62,084 bases of DNA, taken from NCBI GenBank assembly GCA_002869925.2, contig NEWT02000035.1:428483-490566 (forward strand), in the 5' to 3' direction. The notes below the pieces were generated by a model. It was given only the letters and a program-made list of their open reading frames with translations, was not told where the DNA came from and did no database searches. This stretch comes from Nitrospira sp. CG24A (GTDB lineage: Bacteria > Nitrospirota > Nitrospiria > Nitrospirales > Nitrospiraceae). The translations under genes were made by a program, and so were the position numbers. Each line of letters opens with the position of its first letter. Positions within the stretch are counted from its first letter, which is position 1. This document shows positions 1-7,777 of this stretch, in pieces.

Positions 1-480
1 GTGCTCGCATGAATCGCAAACCGCCCGCCCGCCGTGTTGGTCAAACTGTACGTCTTGGTATCCCCGCTATCCACGTCGGTTCCCGTCACCGTCCCCACCA
101 CCGCCCCGGTCGCCGCGTTCTCCGCCACCCGGCTCGCCGACAACGCCAGGTCTGTCGGTCGCTCATTCACGTTCGTCACACTGATCGTAAAGGCTTCGTC
201 GTAGGTCAGCCCCCCGCGGTCCGTCACCCGCACCGTCACGCTATGGCTCGAGGCGCTCTCATAGTTCAACAAGCTGCCGTTCGCCACCGTGAGCACGCCC
301 GTGCTCGCATGAATCGCAAACCGCCCGCCCGCCGTGTTGGTCAAACTGTACGTCTTCGTCTCCCCCGCATCCACGTCGCTGCCCGTGACGGTCCCCACCA
401 CGGTGCCGGTCGCCGCGTTCTCCGCCACCCGGCTCGCCGACAACGCCAGGTCCGTCGGCGCGTCGTTCACGCCACTGACC
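1..480. repeat. Tandem 300-bp repeats encoding cadherin-like domains
   Basis: Positions 1-56 and 301-356 are identical, and 121-150 and 421-450 are identical, so the period is exactly 300 bp (100 codons). The stretches between are similar but diverged, mostly at silent positions. This is a coding tandem array inside the giant surface protein gene and probably continues to the left. Near-identity at the DNA level suggests recent duplication or gene conversion. Confidence 0.93.
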
Positions 481-1748
481 GTCACCATCGTATCGTAGTT
501 CGCACTGGTGCCGCCGTCGCCGTCGGTGAGCACGTAGCGCACCGTGCGCGCGCCGGTCGTCGGCGCATTGGTGTCGGTATCCTGATAGGTGATGTTCCGC
601 ACCAAGGCGGTCACGGCCGTGGGCGTTGCACTGGCGTTTAACGTTACGACAAGATTGGTTCCGCTTCTGCCACCTGCAAACGTCCCGATGGTCATGCCGC
701 CGTAGGTCACATTGCTGCCGCTCACGCCAATCTGGCCCTCGCCGGCGCCTTGATTGCGGATCGTCAGCACGTCCTCGGCACTGTCATTGCCCGCAGGAAT
801 CGAGACGGTCAACCTCCCGGTATCGAAGTTGGCGCTATCTACGTCAGCCACCAAGGCGTTGCCCCTCTGCTCGATGACCACGGCTCCAGCGCCTTCGCTA
901 TAGCGCAGACTGTCGCCGCTGAGATTGGTAATCGTCGGAGGCCGCTCGCCGGCGAGCAAGCCAACCCAATTCGCCTGCACCCCATCGTCCACGGCCACCT
1001 GCGTTTCGACAGTCCCGATCTGCGCTTCCAACACCCAGTCGCCGCCCAATCCGGCAAAGCCGGTGGCGTCCGTACTCGCGGCGACGTCGGCGCCGGTCAA
1101 CTGACTCAGCAGCGTGGCCGCATCTTGGCCAGCCGGACCTTCAGCGAAGTCGCAACCATACACGAGGATGTCGGCTTGTTCAGACAGCGCCTGCTGGATG
1201 GTAGCCAGTTCGTCGGCATACTGCCCCGTCATCGAATCGTGTGTAAGCGCGCCGGTTCCGATGTTGAGCCGGCCTTCGGCTCCGTGGGTGATGAGATGGA
1301 TGGCGTCGATGCCGGAACGGTCGGCGAGCGACTCGGCGATCTGCTCCATACCGTCGCGCGTGGCATCGAGCATGATGATCTCGACGTTGGACCCCATCCC
1401 AGCCACGAGCGATTCATAGTCAGGCACGGTGGGATCGATGAAGGCGACTTCGGTGGTAGACTCGCCCGGTGAGTAGGAAACGATGGCTTGCAGCAGCTCC
1501 TGACTCTCTGTCTGTTCGGTGGAGGTCTGGTCTGCGCTGCCATCAGAGGACACCGCGGCATCGGCCTGCTCCTGCGCCACCTGTTCCGATGCCACTTCAG
1601 ACGCCGTGGCCGCCGCCGCCGCGTCGAACATCAATCGCTGTTCGAGAGAGAGAAGCGACTGTTTCGGATGGGGTGAAGACGAGGGAGTGCGATGAGCTTT
1701 CGGCGCGGCTGGTGCTGCCGGCTTCTTGGTCTTTCGCCAATTGAACAT
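1..1748 (-). CDS. Giant LEPR-XLL/DUF4347/cadherin-repeat surface protein, N-terminal part (runs off left edge)
   Basis: The minus strand is open from an ATG at 1748 to the window edge, giving at least 582 residues. Residues 35-42 read LEQRLMFD followed by an alanine run, which resembles the LEPR-XLL leader of very large bacterial surface proteins. Residues about 100-250 match DUF4347, with an HLITHG segment (His155) and a VYGCDFA segment (Cys199). A beta-rich segment and then cadherin-like repeats follow (DLALSASRVAEN ... LLNYES), encoded by DNA that repeats every 300 bp. There is no ordinary Sec signal peptide. It lies 226 bp downstream of four exporter genes on the same strand, so it is probably their cargo (inference). 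Likely role: secreted adhesin or matrix protein. The full length and C-terminal signals are outside the window. Confidence 0.88.
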   Translation of the reverse strand, partial: MFNWRKTKKPAAPAAPKAHRTPSSSPHPKQSLLSLEQRLMFDAAAAATASEVASEQVAQEQADAAVSSDGSADQTSTEQTESQELLQAIVSYSPGESTTEVAFIDPTVPDYESLVAGMGSNVEIIMLDATRDGMEQIAESLADRSGIDAIHLITHGAEGRLNIGTGALTHDSMTGQYADELATIQQALSEQADILVYGCDFAEGPAGQDAATLLSQLTGADVAASTDATGFAGLGGDWVLEAQIGTVETQVAVDDGVQANWVGLLAGERPPTITNLSGDSLRYSEGAGAVVIEQRGNALVADVDSANFDTGRLTVSIPAGNDSAEDVLTIRNQGAGEGQIGVSGSNVTYGGMTIGTFAGGRSGTNLVVTLNASATPTAVTALVRNITYQDTDTNAPTTGARTVRYVLTDGDGGTSANYDTMVTVSGVNDAPTDLALSASRVAENAATGTVVGTVTGSDVDAGETKTYSLTNTAGGRFAIHASTGVLTVANGSLLNYESASSHSVTVRVTDRGGLTYDEAFTISVTNVNERPTDLALSASRVAENAATGAVVGTVTGTDVDSGDTKTYSLTNTAGGRFAIHAS

Positions 1749-1973
1749 AACGATGCTCGACCCTGACTTGGGGAAGTTCCCACCTCATCATCGGCAGAAC
1801 GCGAGCCGATCTGAAGCCTCAGATATCGAGTGGCAAACGTGGGGGCACGGGATCGAATGTGGAAGGAATATCCGCTTCTATTGGACAAGAACAGAGGGTG
1901 CTAGCTCGTGCAATTATCGGACTGGAGATCCTGACACAGCAGGGTATGATCCTTCAGATCAGGCGCGCCTGAA

Positions 1974-4112
1974 CTAGAATCCACTCTCCCGAATCATCAC
2001 CGCCACCGCCCGATCCCATGCCCGCTCGGCCAGGCTCTCTGTCTTGCCGGTGACATGCAATTGTCCAGTCACCGTTTGATCCACCGGCTCCGTCTGATCC
2101 AGCACCTCAAGCTCGACGCGATAGACGGATTGCTCAGCCTGCACGCGCCCGCGGGCATCCTTTCGTGCCGGCACCTCACCCCCATAGATCGACGCCAAAT
2201 AGGGCAGGGAGAAATCCTGCTCATCCACGTCTCGAATTTCGGTCACACGGGCGCGCCGCGCCGATCGGGTGACATCGTTGGGAATAAAGACCGCCTCCTG
2301 TCCAACCGCCAGTACGCTCAAGTCTTCGACCGGCGCCAATGCCGCGATGGCTGCGCCCTGTGGATCGATGACATAGGCGACGGCCAGCTTCTCATTGATC
2401 CAGCGGCCGGGATAGAGCGAGTCGGCTCGATCGGCGACCACGCCGTCGATGGGTGACTGCAACAGAAGATTGCGCTGCCGTTCGGCCAAACCGTCCAGCT
2501 CGGCCAACTTGGCCCTCAGTGACTCGGCGATCACCCGTCCTTGGGCCCGATCGTCGGCATACCCGGCTTGGCGTTGCAGCCGGAAGTCCAATTGATCCAC
2601 CTGGGTCTGCGCAAGTATCGCGTCTTTGGCCAACTTGGGGTTTTCCAGGATGAGCAAGATATCGGCTTTCCGCACGTGCTGGCCTGGACGTACCGACACC
2701 GCCACGATCCTGCCCGAGGCGGGAGGGTACAGAGTCGCGTACGACCTCGCATATAAGACTCCCGGAATCGCCACACGACTGGACCATGGGATGACTGTGA
2801 GTATCAGCAGCAAGGCCACGACAGCCATCGTGACCGCGAACCGGCTCGTCTTGGCGAAGGCCGCCCGTCGACTCCACCATGCCGTGAGTTCTCGCCAAAT
2901 GGGCAGGCAGATGAAAAAGAGAATCTCGACAAGGAACAGGACGATTCCCAGTGCTTTGAAAAAATGATGATAGACCATCACCGCAATGCCGGTGAACAGC
3001 ATCAATCGATAGGCCCACATCGCCCAGGCATAGGCAACCATGATCCGGCGAGTCGAGAGCCCCACCGACTCTGGTTGCGGCGAGCCGGCGCCAAATAACA
3101 ACTCGCGGAGTTTCCACTGGCCGAACGCACAGGCGCGATCCTGTAAATTGGGAAGTCCCAGTCCATCCGCCAGTACATAGTAGCCGTCAAATCGCATCAG
3201 CGGGTTGAGATTCACCGTCAGGCTCATGATCCAACTGCTGGACGCGACCACAAAGGCCATACTCCGCATTGTCCCATCGGGCAAGAAAGCCCATAGCACG
3301 GTCGCGACCGCTGCGAGTCCCAGCTCCGCCACGACCCCGGCCCCAGCGATGGCCAGCCGCTTGCGCTTGGAACTCAGTCGATACGAATCGCTGACGTCGG
3401 AATAGAGCACCGGCATCATAACCATAAAGGCCACACCGATGGTCGGCACACGGCACCCGAACCGGGTGGCTGTGTAGGCATGGCCGAGTTCGTGCACGAC
3501 CTTCACAAGGCAGAGGACCACGCCATACATGACGGCCCCGCGCCAGTTGAAGAAATGGAGGAACGTCGAGACAAACGCGTCCCACTGCCGACTCACGAGG
3601 AACAGCCCCATGACCCCGATCGTGCCGAAAAGCCAGGCCGCCGCCGCCGTATAGAACGGCGCCACCAGTGGCAACGTGGCGTGGAGAAACTGATGCGGGT
3701 GCACGAGCGGAATCTTGATAAAGAGGTAATGGTGCAGCAGCCATTGCCACCAAGCCTGATGGCGCGCCGCCTCTTGCTGAACGTAGTCTTTGGTCTCCCC
3801 GCTCGCCGACTGCTCGGTCAGGTTGTTCGCATAGAGAAATTTGACGAGGTCTTCTACATCTTCCATCCCAATGCGGGAGGTGGTGTTGTGCGCGATCTCT
3901 TCAACCAATTTTTCGATCGTCCCACATGGCCAGCGCTGCAGGAGTTGATAGACATTCCACTCGATTTGAAAGTACCTATTGCGGACCGGATCGACGACGG
4001 TCCAGGTGGGAACCCCTTCGCTGGTGGGAGCGCCTCGCAGAAATTGCAGGTTCTTTCTGAGCGGAGGAAGCTTCCGCTCCTTCGGTACCTGAGCGGGAGG
4101 AGGTCCGGCCAT
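1974..4112 (-). CDS. PqqD-like domain / site-2 protease (M50) / HlyD-type adaptor fusion
   Basis: A 712-residue inner-membrane protein. Residues about 30-100 look like a PqqD/RRE-type winged helix. Residues 140-440 hold a multi-spanning M50 domain with the zinc motif HELGH at 207-211 and a second motif NPLMRFDG at 303-310. After a last membrane span near 430-450 comes a lipoyl/HlyD-like barrel with coiled coil (LYPPASGRIVAVSVRPGQ onward). M50 proteins fused to adaptor domains are known, but what they carry is poorly defined. The start has GGGAG 9 nt upstream and lies 3 nt after the preceding gene, so the two are co-transcribed. I infer that it is the inner-membrane component of an exporter for the downstream giant protein. 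It could instead be a processing protease or a general efflux component. Confidence 0.88.
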   Translation of the reverse strand: MAGPPPAQVPKERKLPPLRKNLQFLRGAPTSEGVPTWTVVDPVRNRYFQIEWNVYQLLQRWPCGTIEKLVEEIAHNTTSRIGMEDVEDLVKFLYANNLTEQSASGETKDYVQQEAARHQAWWQWLLHHYLFIKIPLVHPHQFLHATLPLVAPFYTAAAAWLFGTIGVMGLFLVSRQWDAFVSTFLHFFNWRGAVMYGVVLCLVKVVHELGHAYTATRFGCRVPTIGVAFMVMMPVLYSDVSDSYRLSSKRKRLAIAGAGVVAELGLAAVATVLWAFLPDGTMRSMAFVVASSSWIMSLTVNLNPLMRFDGYYVLADGLGLPNLQDRACAFGQWKLRELLFGAGSPQPESVGLSTRRIMVAYAWAMWAYRLMLFTGIAVMVYHHFFKALGIVLFLVEILFFICLPIWRELTAWWSRRAAFAKTSRFAVTMAVVALLLILTVIPWSSRVAIPGVLYARSYATLYPPASGRIVAVSVRPGQHVRKADILLILENPKLAKDAILAQTQVDQLDFRLQRQAGYADDRAQGRVIAESLRAKLAELDGLAERQRNLLLQSPIDGVVADRADSLYPGRWINEKLAVAYVIDPQGAAIAALAPVEDLSVLAVGQEAVFIPNDVTRSARRARVTEIRDVDEQDFSLPYLASIYGGEVPARKDARGRVQAEQSVYRVELEVLDQTEPVDQTVTGQLHVTGKTESLAERAWDRAVAVMIRESGF

Positions 4113-4115
4113 GGA

Positions 4116-5480
4116 TTACACTCCCAGCAGTTGGCGTAGGGCGGCGAATGGGCGGCGGAAGAGCAAGAACGCGAGCGGGCCTCGTTCACCGTAGACTTTG
4201 GCAGAACCTTGCCAACCGATACGGATACGCGGATCAGTAGCGGCCAGTTCCGCCGTCACCCGATAGGCCAAGACGTCGCCGGGCAACACCTCGGCATGAT
4301 AGCTGGCCCGGCTCACCGACGCCGCGAACGATTCCAACGACAGGGCATCAAAGAATGCCACGACGTCTGCACCTTCCTTCAGTAGTAGCGCGTCGCTCAC
4401 AGGAAGATCGATCCGAAGTTCGATGCGTTGCGGATCGGCAATTTCCATGATCCGCTCGCCGACGGAGACTGGCTTGCCTAACCAATCGGCCTTGTCGGTA
4501 TAGAGCAACAGACCGGCTTGCGGCGCCCGCACCTCGATTTGTGCCAGCATCTCCCTGGCGTAGGCGAGCTCCGTTTCTTTGAGCGAGGCCTCAGCCTCTT
4601 TCAGCGGCGCGTCGGCCTTCCGTTGCGGGTCTGAAAAGCCGCCCTGGACGGCTTGCGAATGTTCAGCCCGCGCCACCGCCAGTTGTTTCTCCGCTACCTG
4701 GAACTGGTTACGGACATTGGTGTCTTCATAGCGGAATAAGAGTCTGTCCTGTAATACCATCGTATTGGGCGGCACAGCCACATCGGCAATCACCCCATCC
4801 ATCGGCGCACTCACAACAATGGGATCCTTCGCCATGACCTTGACCGGCGCCATCGTCGACACTCGAATCGGTACGCACAGCGCCGCGACCATTGCGGCAC
4901 CGACCAACCAGTACGAGGGCTTTTTGATGGTCGCAGACCAGCTTCTGGTGCGTTTCGACAACGCCTTCCACGCATAGGCGAAACTCCCGGCTAATCGATG
5001 GACGATCGCCACATCGTTCTCTTCCCATGGAAATTCCCGTTCGAACCACCAGCCTCCGAGCACTGTTTCATCCGGGTGCTTCAGCGGACACCAAAACACA
5101 TATCCCTGGACATGCTCGTGCCAACCCTCGCGACAGGGCTCCGGACAGGTCTCCTCAGTCACGACCATGGGCACACCGTCCGGATGCTCCCGCTGGAGTA
5201 CCTGGACCACCTGTTCGAGCCAGCGAATCATCGGCGCATCGCGATCGACAAGCGCCACACTCGATGCACAGACCACCTGCCATGGCACCGACTCGGACTC
5301 GGCGGCACTAAACAGATAGGCTTGCTGGTACGGCACAAGCCGTCGCGTCTCGTTCACGGAGAGAAACTGCAGTTCCTGAACGGTTTTTGCCGCGCGGACC
5401 TGCCCTTCGAGATGCGTGAGGGCTGCCAGGTGGACCAGGGTGGTCAGTTGCTGCGAGGTCGGTTCGGTGGTCGCGGCCAT
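4116..5480 (-). CDS. GAF-like domain / HlyD-family membrane fusion protein
   Basis: A 454-residue protein from the ATG at 5480; an upstream TTG at 5504 would add 8 residues but has no ribosome site. Residues about 15-165 resemble a GAF domain and face the cytoplasm. A single membrane span (SYWLVGAAMVAALCVPI) follows near 190, then a lipoyl-like hairpin barrel and coiled coil typical of HlyD adaptors (PIVVSAPMDGVIADVAVPPN). It is the second of three adaptor-type proteins in this operon. The GAF part might sense a ligand or nucleotide and gate export (inference). It lies 4 nt after the upstream adaptor gene and 3 nt before the M50 fusion. Confidence 0.82.
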   Translation of the reverse strand: MAATTEPTSQQLTTLVHLAALTHLEGQVRAAKTVQELQFLSVNETRRLVPYQQAYLFSAAESESVPWQVVCASSVALVDRDAPMIRWLEQVVQVLQREHPDGVPMVVTEETCPEPCREGWHEHVQGYVFWCPLKHPDETVLGGWWFEREFPWEENDVAIVHRLAGSFAYAWKALSKRTRSWSATIKKPSYWLVGAAMVAALCVPIRVSTMAPVKVMAKDPIVVSAPMDGVIADVAVPPNTMVLQDRLLFRYEDTNVRNQFQVAEKQLAVARAEHSQAVQGGFSDPQRKADAPLKEAEASLKETELAYAREMLAQIEVRAPQAGLLLYTDKADWLGKPVSVGERIMEIADPQRIELRIDLPVSDALLLKEGADVVAFFDALSLESFAASVSRASYHAEVLPGDVLAYRVTAELAATDPRIRIGWQGSAKVYGERGPLAFLLFRRPFAALRQLLGV

Positions 5481-5484
5481 GACG

Positions 5485-6270
5485 TTACGGTTGCCTCGAT
5501 GCAAATTGCGCCGTGCCGCTCATCCCGGCCAGCACATCGACCGGCAGCTTACCGAAGATGCCGATGACCTTGATCGTCTGACTCGCCGAATCCACATTCG
5601 CACCGATCTCCTTGACCTTGGCCGCATACTCATGGTGTGTTTCATCGACGGCGAATATGAAGGGGGATTTCCGTTTCAGCCACGCTAACGACGAGGAGGG
5701 CAGCACCAGCTCGATTTCGAGACTCGTATCGTCGAGCAGGCTCAGGAGCTTGTCGTTTGGAAAGACGTGTTCATGCTCGTTGACCATGACCCCGACAACG
5801 CGGCCTGAAAACGGGGCTGCGATGTGGCAGCCCTGCACGCTGATCTCAGCAATCCGAATCGCGGCATAGGCCTTCTTCGCTTCGGCTTCGGAAATCTCCA
5901 AATCCAGCGTACTGACCGCCTGCAGTTTGGTGAGTTCTTTGTTGTTCTGAAACGTTTTGTCTTTCGCCTCATGTTCGGCTACAGCCACAGCTAACTCCGC
6001 GCGATACTTGTCACAATCGATTTGCACCAGCGTGCTCCCCTTTTCAAATCGCTGTCCTTCCTTAAATGGCACCTGACTCACACGGCCCTGGATTTGAGCA
6101 TAGAGCACGGCCTGTGTCGCGGCTTTGACTACGCCGCGCATGACCCCATTTTCCAATCGCATGACGTGCGACGGTCGCTCGCCTTTCGACCAACCCGTTT
6201 GAGGGCCCACAACCACCATGGCAACCAATAACAGTCCGAACAAGGCGCTAGTGCGCCAATGATGCCGCAT
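5485..6270 (-). CDS. Periplasmic adaptor (HlyD/RND membrane fusion protein family)
   Basis: A 261-residue protein with an N-terminal signal peptide (ALFGLLLVAMVVVG). Two lipoyl half-motifs (VLYAQIQGRVSQVPFKEGQ and HIAAPFSGRVVGVMVNEHE) flank a short helical hairpin, as in efflux and type I secretion adaptors. It is shorter than most family members, which usually exceed 350 residues, and lacks much of the C-terminal membrane-proximal domain. GGAGGG lies about 9 nt before the ATG. The start overlaps the end of the TolC-like gene by 23 bp, indicating translational coupling. It probably bridges the outer-membrane channel and the two membrane-anchored adaptors. Confidence 0.85.
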   Translation of the reverse strand: MRHHWRTSALFGLLLVAMVVVGPQTGWSKGERPSHVMRLENGVMRGVVKAATQAVLYAQIQGRVSQVPFKEGQRFEKGSTLVQIDCDKYRAELAVAVAEHEAKDKTFQNNKELTKLQAVSTLDLEISEAEAKKAYAAIRIAEISVQGCHIAAPFSGRVVGVMVNEHEHVFPNDKLLSLLDDTSLEIELVLPSSSLAWLKRKSPFIFAVDETHHEYAAKVKEIGANVDSASQTIKVIGIFGKLPVDVLAGMSGTAQFASRQP

Positions 6271-7777
6271 GATTGTCCGCCCTCCCTTCTTCGTCGGACA
6301 CCCTTACAGGGAGAGACTCCCAGATAGTCCGAAGGGTCTCGGCCAGCTGTGGGACCGTCTGGCCTCCGATGCCATTCGGCACGGCATCTTGTCCCAGCGA
6401 GGCCAGCAACGTGGCATAGGCTGTTTCTACGCCGGATTGTGCGCTGTCCATTCGCACTTCGGCGAGCACATCGTTAACCCGTTCGCGAATGAGCGTGAGG
6501 TCGCTCGTGCTGTGCGTGAACCACAAATTTTTCGTATAGTCCGTGATGGCCGTTTGCGTATCGTGGTAGTTCTTCGCGTTCTCGTATTCCTGTTTCGTTT
6601 GGGCCAACTGAACGGCCCCCACATGCACTTCGGTCAGGATGGCCATGGTCATGGCCATGCTTTGGGCATCCAGGACTTCACGCTGAGCGTCCACCGCTTT
6701 CAACTTGGCGGGAGTGCGAAAGGCAGAGAGTAAGTTGTAACTCGCCTGAGAGGCATAGCCTAGCCAGTTTTGGTTAAACAAAAAGCTGTTGCTGTTGTAG
6801 TACCCGCCTGCGCTGAGCCTCAGGCTGGGAAACAACTCCAGAAACACCGCCCGGGCCTCCTTGGCGTTGATCCGCTTTTGATAGTCGATCGAGCGCAGCT
6901 CTGCCCGGAACAGCAACGCCTGTTGTTCCATGCTCTCCGTATCCAGATTGACGATCGGTAGCGTACCTGTCCTCATTGGTACCGCCAGTTCGTAGAGTGC
7001 CCCCGGCGGCAACCCCATCATCGAGGCCAGTTGAGTTCTCGCAGTACTGAGTTCACGATACAGCCGCTGAACCTCTCGCTGGATATTGAGTAAATCTCGG
7101 CGGTAGTTAAGCGGGGTGAGCGGAGACTGGAGCTTCTTGTCGACGATCTGCTGAGCGCTCTCTAACGCCTTGGTCACAGATTCGTTGAGAAACTCTACCC
7201 GGTGGAGCACGCGCTCGGCACTGATTGCCCGCCAATACGCGCTCCGAACATCCTGGGCCAACCGCACGGCAATTCGACGCTTTTCTTCCTCCGCGATCAT
7301 GACGTTGTCTGCCGCCTGCTGCGCACGCACGAACGACAACCCAAAATCCAACACATCCCAACTCAGCGCCAAATTCCCTGACGTGACGTTCTTCTCGGAA
7401 GAGGTAAAGGCCTCCACAGCTTGGCGGCCTGTCACAAGCGATTGCCCGACACCGCCGGCGAAGTTATTGCGTCCATCGAACCCGGCATTGGCCGACAGCT
7501 GCGGCAGCAAGGAATAGTGCGCGACATTGAGCTGTTGGTGGGCCAATTGCGCCTGCATGGCCTTCACCTTGGCATCCAGGTTGTATTTCAACGCGCGAGC
7601 GATGGCTTCGTAGAGATTAATCGGGCCTGAAACCGGCTCCTGAATGGTCGTCACAGTCTGGAGATCCTTCGTCGCTCGTGTTTGTACGTCTTGCATGGTC
7701 AACACGTACGGCTTGACCATGCACCCGGTGAGCATCAGCAGAGTCCCCATCGCGACCACTATGCGCTGAACCATCAT
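6248..7777 (-). CDS. TolC-family outer membrane channel lipoprotein
   Basis: A 509-residue protein from the ATG at 7777; a TTG 21 nt upstream is possible. The start region carries a lipobox (LMLTGC). Two long helical repeats with the TolC/OEP pattern follow (ALKYNLDAKVKAMQAQLAHQ; LSWDVLDFGLSFVRAQQAAD; SYNLLSAFRTPAKLKAVDAQ). It would form the trimeric outer-membrane exit duct for the adaptors encoded immediately downstream. It is the first gene of the five-gene minus-strand cluster, so the promoter should lie in 7778-8201. Confidence 0.9.
   Translation of the reverse strand: MMVQRIVVAMGTLLMLTGCMVKPYVLTMQDVQTRATKDLQTVTTIQEPVSGPINLYEAIARALKYNLDAKVKAMQAQLAHQQLNVAHYSLLPQLSANAGFDGRNNFAGGVGQSLVTGRQAVEAFTSSEKNVTSGNLALSWDVLDFGLSFVRAQQAADNVMIAEEEKRRIAVRLAQDVRSAYWRAISAERVLHRVEFLNESVTKALESAQQIVDKKLQSPLTPLNYRRDLLNIQREVQRLYRELSTARTQLASMMGLPPGALYELAVPMRTGTLPIVNLDTESMEQQALLFRAELRSIDYQKRINAKEARAVFLELFPSLRLSAGGYYNSNSFLFNQNWLGYASQASYNLLSAFRTPAKLKAVDAQREVLDAQSMAMTMAILTEVHVGAVQLAQTKQEYENAKNYHDTQTAITDYTKNLWFTHSTSDLTLIRERVNDVLAEVRMDSAQSGVETAYATLLASLGQDAVPNGIGGQTVPQLAETLRTIWESLPVRVSDEEGRADNHAASLAH

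Follow-up and report, generated by a model that had tools for sequence, protein, structure and literature searches.

This study concerns an operon at one end of a 62,084-nucleotide stretch of DNA from Nitrospira sp. CG24A (contig 29, 428483-490566; the whole stretch is called the window), whose genome assembly of 3.36 Mb is 95% complete. Its five genes encode a TolC-like outer-membrane channel, three HlyD-type adaptors, the last of them fused to an M50 site-2 protease, and a surface protein (here called the adhesin) with a DUF4347 domain and, near its N-terminus, a motif of the LEPR type. We lean, on sequence comparison, towards the view that the operon serves as an export apparatus dedicated to its own LEPR-motif surface protein and that it would act by the mechanism proposed below; that the apparatus serves LEPR proteins is, in our estimation, very probable. 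Loci of this kind have been known since 2015. What is new is a widespread branch of them (branch A, with at least 584 relatives of the fusion in GTDB species genomes) that does without the SecA-like ATPase of its sister (branch B), and the link to LEPR substrates in both branches.

The connection between the apparatus and its putative substrate is seen first of all in their distribution. Among 396 Nitrospirota genomes, the branch-A fusion is present in 62 and DUF4347 in 64; 61 genomes have both, one has only the fusion, three have only DUF4347 and 331 have neither (in four genomes, in which the fusion gene is cut off, branch A was assigned by hand). DUF4347 is thus found in 61/62 branch-A genomes as compared to 3/334 others (Fisher p 6e-67, a value that ignores phylogeny), and for 61 of the 68 branch-A fusion genes a DUF4347 gene lies on the same strand within 5 kb. 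An earlier note on this DNA, made from the sequence alone, had expected such an association, and these counts bear it out. DUF4347 is also found in 38 of 45 proteobacterial branch-A genomes, and in none of nine genomes that have branch B only. Loci were fetched for 80 of the at least 584 relatives, from Nitrospirota, Proteobacteria, Desulfobacterota and one member of the Bdellovibrionota, and most of them hold the same genes, with the adhesin on either side of the exporter genes.

The set of TolC, HlyD, extended HlyD, M50-HlyD and DUF4347 genes is present, whole or up to the contig end and with no ATP-binding cassette (ABC) gene, in nearly all loci of the other 14 relatives. The exception is the closest relative (G028, 91-95% identical; L050, G028:C22:461000-480000), where the M50-HlyD frame is shortened and no DUF4347 gene lies within 9 kb; as far as one can tell this copy has decayed, as if adhesin and apparatus decay together. 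The fusion is also carried on plasmids of Azospirillum, Burkholderia and E. coli, and in the latter it is found in 24 of 5,426 complete genomes, mostly plasmid-borne. Azospirillum argentinense Az39 (L163) is among the cultured carriers of branch A. One E. coli IncF-type plasmid (L160, NZ_CP081687.1 44796-69240) harbors the complete branch-A set together with a LEPR/DUF4347 protein of 4,459 amino acids.

The second line of evidence is the motif itself. LExRxx[FL]D is present, 45-101 amino acids before the domain, in 46 of the 47 DUF4347 proteins whose N-terminus is complete, and the remaining one carries LEPRVVYD; the set had not been preselected for LEPR, LESR or LEQR, and the rate in shuffled sequences is 0.0003. 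Among 1,200 other open reading frames of more than 250 amino acids the motif was found in five, all of them encoding large proteins of the surface type that belong to these loci and have no DUF4347, and the motif therefore tracks the apparatus more closely than DUF4347 does. In the window it reads SLEQRLMFDA (residues 34-43; 1620..1649, minus strand), our candidate for the export signal, and in the E. coli plasmid protein ALESRQLFDGAA. The LEPR-XLL label that the adhesin had received in the earlier note is correct as regards the motif, since LEQRLMFDAA is present and conserved, but not as regards the curated model NF012209, which scores 13.9 bits with a cut-off of 17.

The N-terminal segment with the motif does not resemble a Sec signal, its best 11-residue hydropathy being 0.93-1.67 versus 1.81-3.5 in HlyD signal peptides. 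RTX repeats (nonapeptides), the C-terminal feature that was looked for, are absent from 15 branch-A adhesins whose C-terminus is complete and from the C-terminal fragment of the window copy, and several of these proteins have a C-terminal hydrophobic stretch followed by a short tail. An N-terminal signature together with a hydrophobic C-terminal end suggests export from the N- to the C-terminus, the reverse of type I secretion.

The DUF4347 domain of the window copy (954..1448, minus strand) matches PF14252 with 182.8 bits (cut-off 24.6) and contains both THG and YGC, the His-Gly and the Cys of a putative clan CD cysteine peptidase. Its structure model, which has a caspase/CHAT-like fold, reaches Z scores of 13.2 with the solved DUF4347 protein 9qpe, 9.0 with SAVED-CHAT and 7.4 with caspase-3. 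In three cases (L061 in G057:C6, G288 and G353), three to four DUF4347 genes surround a single apparatus, which suggests one exporter with several cargoes.

Turning to the fusion (1974..4112, minus strand; PF02163 32.4 bits, PF13437 42.2 bits), the zinc-protease residues H207, E208, H211, N301, P304, D309 and G310 are invariant among 58 fusion sequences, and all 58 have both M50 and HlyD domain matches. The HExxH and N-P...DG zinc motifs lie in membrane helices, and a profile of the fusion aligns with the archaeal S2P structure 3b4r over residues 195-225 (E 6.6e-5). An AlphaFold model (pLDDT, the predicted local distance difference test, 86.8) shows a domain of three strands and three helices (23-95), about seven membrane helices (156-440, an approximate count taken from the helix list of the model) and an HlyD part (442-696) with a Z of 17.1 to MacA; Foldseek and VIA searches with the full fusion return the HlyD part alone and are uninformative on the membrane and N-terminal parts. 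If the membrane helices are odd in number, the N-terminal domain would be cytosolic and the HlyD part periplasmic. This N-terminal domain, which the earlier note overlooked, is predicted to be PqqD-like from the model and from the alignment with branch B, where PqqD is matched with 24.5 bits (cut-off 23.4). No match to PF05402 (PqqD) was found in the window fusion, the predicted topology of the domain is compatible with PqqD, and a profile search of the domain against the PDB gave weak RRE-type matches only (5v1u, E 0.89; 5sxy, E 0.72).

Branch B is a second M50-HlyD family, about 22-25% identical to the branch-A fusion, and a tree separates the two with full support. Its neighbours are a GAF-HlyD protein, a SecA-like protein of about 696 amino acids (PF07517 338 bits), HlyD, TolC, a DUF3467 protein and a LEPR-XLL protein (NF012209 28 bits), the genes for which encode up to 12,918 amino acids. 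Among the 396 Nitrospirota genomes, the SecA-like gene directly adjoins the fusion in all 20 branch-B genomes, and it is present in one other genome and in none of the 51 branch-A-only genomes; the host of the window has the housekeeping SecA alone, and no secondary SecA_DEAD protein was found in its genome. The same branch-B set is present on alphaproteobacterial plasmids, where database records call the gene in the SecA-like position SecA, 'prepilin peptidase' or 'DEAD/DEAH box helicase'. Genes with one of the latter two names lie at L162:17074-19098, L168:17222-19138, L167:17139-19124 and L169:17180-19141, and the one in L162, which was checked, has full SecA domains. The small DUF3467 protein is found with branch B in both Nitrospirota and Alphaproteobacteria (L064:6794-7138, L170:12681-12977). 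The branch-B operon of a Thalassospira marina plasmid (L170) has no SecA-like gene within it, and it forms the first split within branch B in a midpoint-rooted tree. The SecA-like matches of G261, G416, G104, G259 and G154 contain a single in-frame TAG; the probable reason is that the frame of the match begins ahead of the true start, where it overlaps the M50 gene.

In 2015, Kamneva, Poudel and Ward (PMC4452313) reported secondary SecA_DEAD loci that also hold GAF-HlyD, M50-HlyD and HlyD genes, one of them in Methylobacterium extorquens AM1; they noted the absence of an ABC transporter and proposed that SecA_DEAD is the motor or ATPase and M50 the pore. The main text of that paper names neither a substrate nor a SecA-less branch and calls the role of the loci 'completely unknown'. 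The distinct secretion route that the earlier note had postulated for LEPR-XLL proteins therefore has to be seen in this light: an apparatus without an ABC transporter that is dedicated to LEPR/DUF4347 proteins is indeed what the data support, but the idea is not new, given the SecA branch in that paper. Likewise, the description of the apparatus as ATPase-free is accurate for the operon, which has no ABC gene, but not as a mechanism, since a SecA-like ATPase adjoins the fusion of the sister branch in 20/20 genomes. The M50 protease takes the place of an ABC ATPase in gene position; a replacement in function would be conjecture.

We propose that in an adhesin devoid of a Sec-type signal peptide the LEPR motif would be bound by the PqqD-like domain on the cytosolic side, in the way that peptide-maturation systems hold a leader peptide. 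The chain would then be passed on, N-terminus first, by the membrane domain of the fusion into a conduit made of the periplasmic HlyD part of the fusion, the other two adaptors and the TolC-like channel. Either during or after export the LEPR segment is probably cut at the M50 site, and the DUF4347 domain, with its caspase/CHAT fold, may process the adhesin once it is outside. Energy would come in trans, most simply from the housekeeping SecA or the proton-motive force, and in branch B from the operon-encoded SecA-like ATPase. The adjacent SecA-like gene in branch B makes a motor in trans, e.g., the housekeeping SecA, the obvious guess for branch A, and we regard the drive of branch A by housekeeping SecA as possible rather than probable. 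Somewhat closer to an even chance, though still tentative, is the reading of the LEPR motif by the PqqD-like domain. The same reserve applies to the proposal in its full form, namely that these loci might represent a distinct pathway for giant surface proteins, with an N-terminal LEPR signal, a PqqD-like reader on a protease/adaptor fusion, N-to-C export, no ABC transporter and an interchangeable motor, which would be SecA-like in branch B and borrowed in branch A.

Several observations weigh against this proposal. The branch-A operon encodes no motor, and MsbA-type ABC exporters are present in every genome checked, so that an unorthodox ABC partner is conceivable. Pfam detects PqqD in two of the 58 family members, of which two belong to branch B, and does not detect it in the branch-A proteins. 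Furthermore, seven of the 45 proteobacterial genomes have the apparatus but no DUF4347, and the co-occurrence counts carry no phylogenetic correction. Some DUF4347 copies in relatives are without the His or the Cys, both of which are present in the window copy, and proteolysis by DUF4347 is for this reason not general.

The most serious alternative is a two-step route, in which SecYEG/SecA would take the adhesin over the inner membrane, the HlyD adaptors and the TolC-like channel would serve the outer membrane only, and the M50 protease would remove the N-terminal segment at the inner membrane. M50 site-2 proteases cleave inside membranes, an N-terminal signal agrees with the polarity of Sec, and the SecA-like protein of branch B has SecA_DEAD, P-loop and preprotein-binding domains. 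However, a hydrophobic core of the Sec kind is missing from the N-terminal segment, and an outer-membrane step would need less than three adaptors and a PqqD-M50 fusion. We consider this route unlikely, but worth keeping in mind.

Alternatively, export could be powered in trans by an HlyB-type ABC transporter of the host, with the M50-HlyD protein as an accessory processing factor. The host does have one HlyB-type type I secretion system on contig 9 (G000:C9, TIGR01846 1025 bits), a classical operon with type I HlyD and TolC (L072:5171-10137), and an ABC exporter gene adjoins the locus in Serratia (L123). On the other hand, HlyB-, LssB- and PrtD-type ABC genes are missing from five carriers of the system, G050 (2 contigs), G057 (7 contigs), G045, G031 and G062, the last being the closed chromosome of Nitrospira sp. 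UBC2. The best ABC match in these five, at about 340 bits, is MsbA-like, as compared to 560-584 for HlyB-type genes, and none exceeds the PrtD cut-off; a PrtD-type ABC is present in G060. With five carriers, one of them closed, that have none of these ABC types, a type I ABC transporter is dispensable for the system as a whole, and the apparatus probably works without one. The adaptors, too, are far from type I HlyD, two of them scoring 16.4 and 18.7 bits with TIGR01843 (cut-off 208.65) and the third not being listed among the matches, and RTX repeats were not found in the adhesins. An ABC gene serving the adhesin from beyond the left edge, which the earlier note had considered, was looked for as well: the 40 kb left of the window, of which the adjacent 20 kb were read protein by protein, revealed no recognisable ABC exporter, and in an ABC_membrane search of the whole genome none of the six genes found was on contig 29. 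Type I secretion in trans thus strikes us as improbable.

It would be very improbable, in our view, that the main task of the M50-HlyD protease is regulation or quality control, with the adhesin being trimmed or released once some other route has exported it. The invariant zinc-protease residues would fit such a role, and release of Lap-type adhesins is controlled by a protease (PMC6584795), but the fusion to HlyD and the company of two adaptors and an OEP channel indicate transport. Slightest of all is the chance of a small-molecule or modified-peptide exporter of which the adhesin is merely a neighbour: M50 and PqqD are combined in daptide and epipeptide clusters, and among curated models the M50 part comes closest to the daptide HExxH protease NF041824 (172 bits, not reaching the cut-off of 300), but co-occurrence and linkage with LEPR proteins are near-perfect across two deeply split branches, and the loci, in which short open reading frames were not searched, yielded no recognisable gene for a precursor peptide or a modification enzyme.

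As for the locus in the window, the list of open reading frames and profile searches of positions 1-7777 agree with the earlier note on five co-directional genes and on their order, all on the minus strand. The OEP/TolC-family channel (6248..7777) has a lipoprotein signal (LTGC), its N-terminus resembling a signal peptide by eye and hydropathy, and matches PF02321 with 94.9 bits, TIGR01844 staying under its cut-off at 17.9. It is followed by a periplasmic HlyD/MFP adaptor with a signal peptide (5485..6270; PF13437 69 bits, TIGR01730 117 bits, above the cut-off of 94.9) and by an HlyD-family adaptor with an N-terminal domain of about 180 amino acids before its transmembrane segment (4116..5504; PF13437 43.9 bits). 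The GAF domain that had been assigned to this second adaptor could not be detected; a profile comparison with the GAF region of branch B gave a weak match of 16% probability and was set aside. The extended adaptor is the equivalent of the branch-B GAF-HlyD protein, with GAF itself unconfirmed in the window protein. After the fusion comes the adhesin (1..1748), whose DUF4347 and cadherin content (PF00028 55 bits) is as previously read.

The tight spacing described before applies to the four exporter genes, which overlap or are 3 nucleotides apart, but not to the adhesin, which starts 225 nucleotides downstream. The left edge of the window abuts at least 8 N, an assembly gap inside near-identical cadherin repeats. 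Beyond it, at L008:19290-19992, the same repeat resumes and is followed by a C-terminal tail of about 170 amino acids and a stop. The 3′ part of the adhesin gene is lost in the gap, and at least about 810 amino acids are seen; the word giant, applied to the adhesin earlier, is therefore not established for the window copy but is justified for its relatives, with 4,459 amino acids in the E. coli plasmid protein, and for the paralogue in a second copy of the same five-gene set on contig 8 of the host (L049), an open reading frame of at least 2,467 amino acids. Further to the left lie genes for a lytic transglycosylase-like protein, an ABC-F protein (L008:15894-17738, the only ATP-binding cassette gene in the adjacent 20 kb) and FKBP proteins, named from reading the sequence, and none of them is an exporter.

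HlyD and TolC genes beside giant adhesins commonly prompt an assignment to type I secretion, and in the database records seen the fusion is annotated 'HlyD family efflux transporter' or 'site-2 protease'. If these loci are a true secretion route, a substrate class and a signal would be in hand for loci whose role was 'completely unknown' in the main text of the 2015 paper, and a direct genetic test would be feasible in easily grown bacteria. Three published groups of proteins were considered as members and set aside: the Pectobacterium multi-repeat adhesin ECA3266, which is treated as a type I/LapG-type system (PMC6963963, PMC6584795) and, to judge from the text, belongs to a different locus; Pantoea RTX2, for which M50 or HlyD is unmentioned in PMC11438254; and the DDxP proteins, for which M50, DUF4347 and LEPR are unmentioned in PMC7730722.

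Among known systems, the SecA_DEAD loci described in the main text of PMC4452313 share with branch A a homologous M50-HlyD fusion, HlyD adaptors, an OEP channel and the absence of an ABC transporter, whereas branch A has no SecA-like ATPase and no DUF3467, has DUF4347 substrates and differs in the sequence of the fusion itself (identity of about 22-25%). Type I secretion (HlyB-HlyD-TolC, or Lap-type export) likewise combines an HlyD-family adaptor and a TolC-family channel with a very large repetitive adhesin as cargo; branch A, in contrast, has no ABC ATPase, an N- instead of a C-terminal signature, no RTX repeats, extra adaptors and a protease fusion. The M50 maturation proteases of the daptide (NF041824) and YydH/LiaK (NF058609) type resemble the fusion in part of its PqqD-like and M50 domains (residues 38-403 for NF041824), but the scores are under the cut-offs, and the fusion carries HlyD and is linked to a giant protein, not to a short peptide. 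With the LEPR-XLL domain (NF012209), the branch-A adhesins have in common that an LExR core stands close to the N-terminus of a giant repetitive protein, whereas their own form, LExRxxFD[AG]A, mostly falls below the cut-off of the model. Finally, Tce1 (9qpe), a DUF4347 protein bound to the type VI protein Hcp3, shares the DUF4347 fold (Z 13.2), but it is a separate protein linked to type VI secretion, whereas here DUF4347 is a domain of the adhesin.

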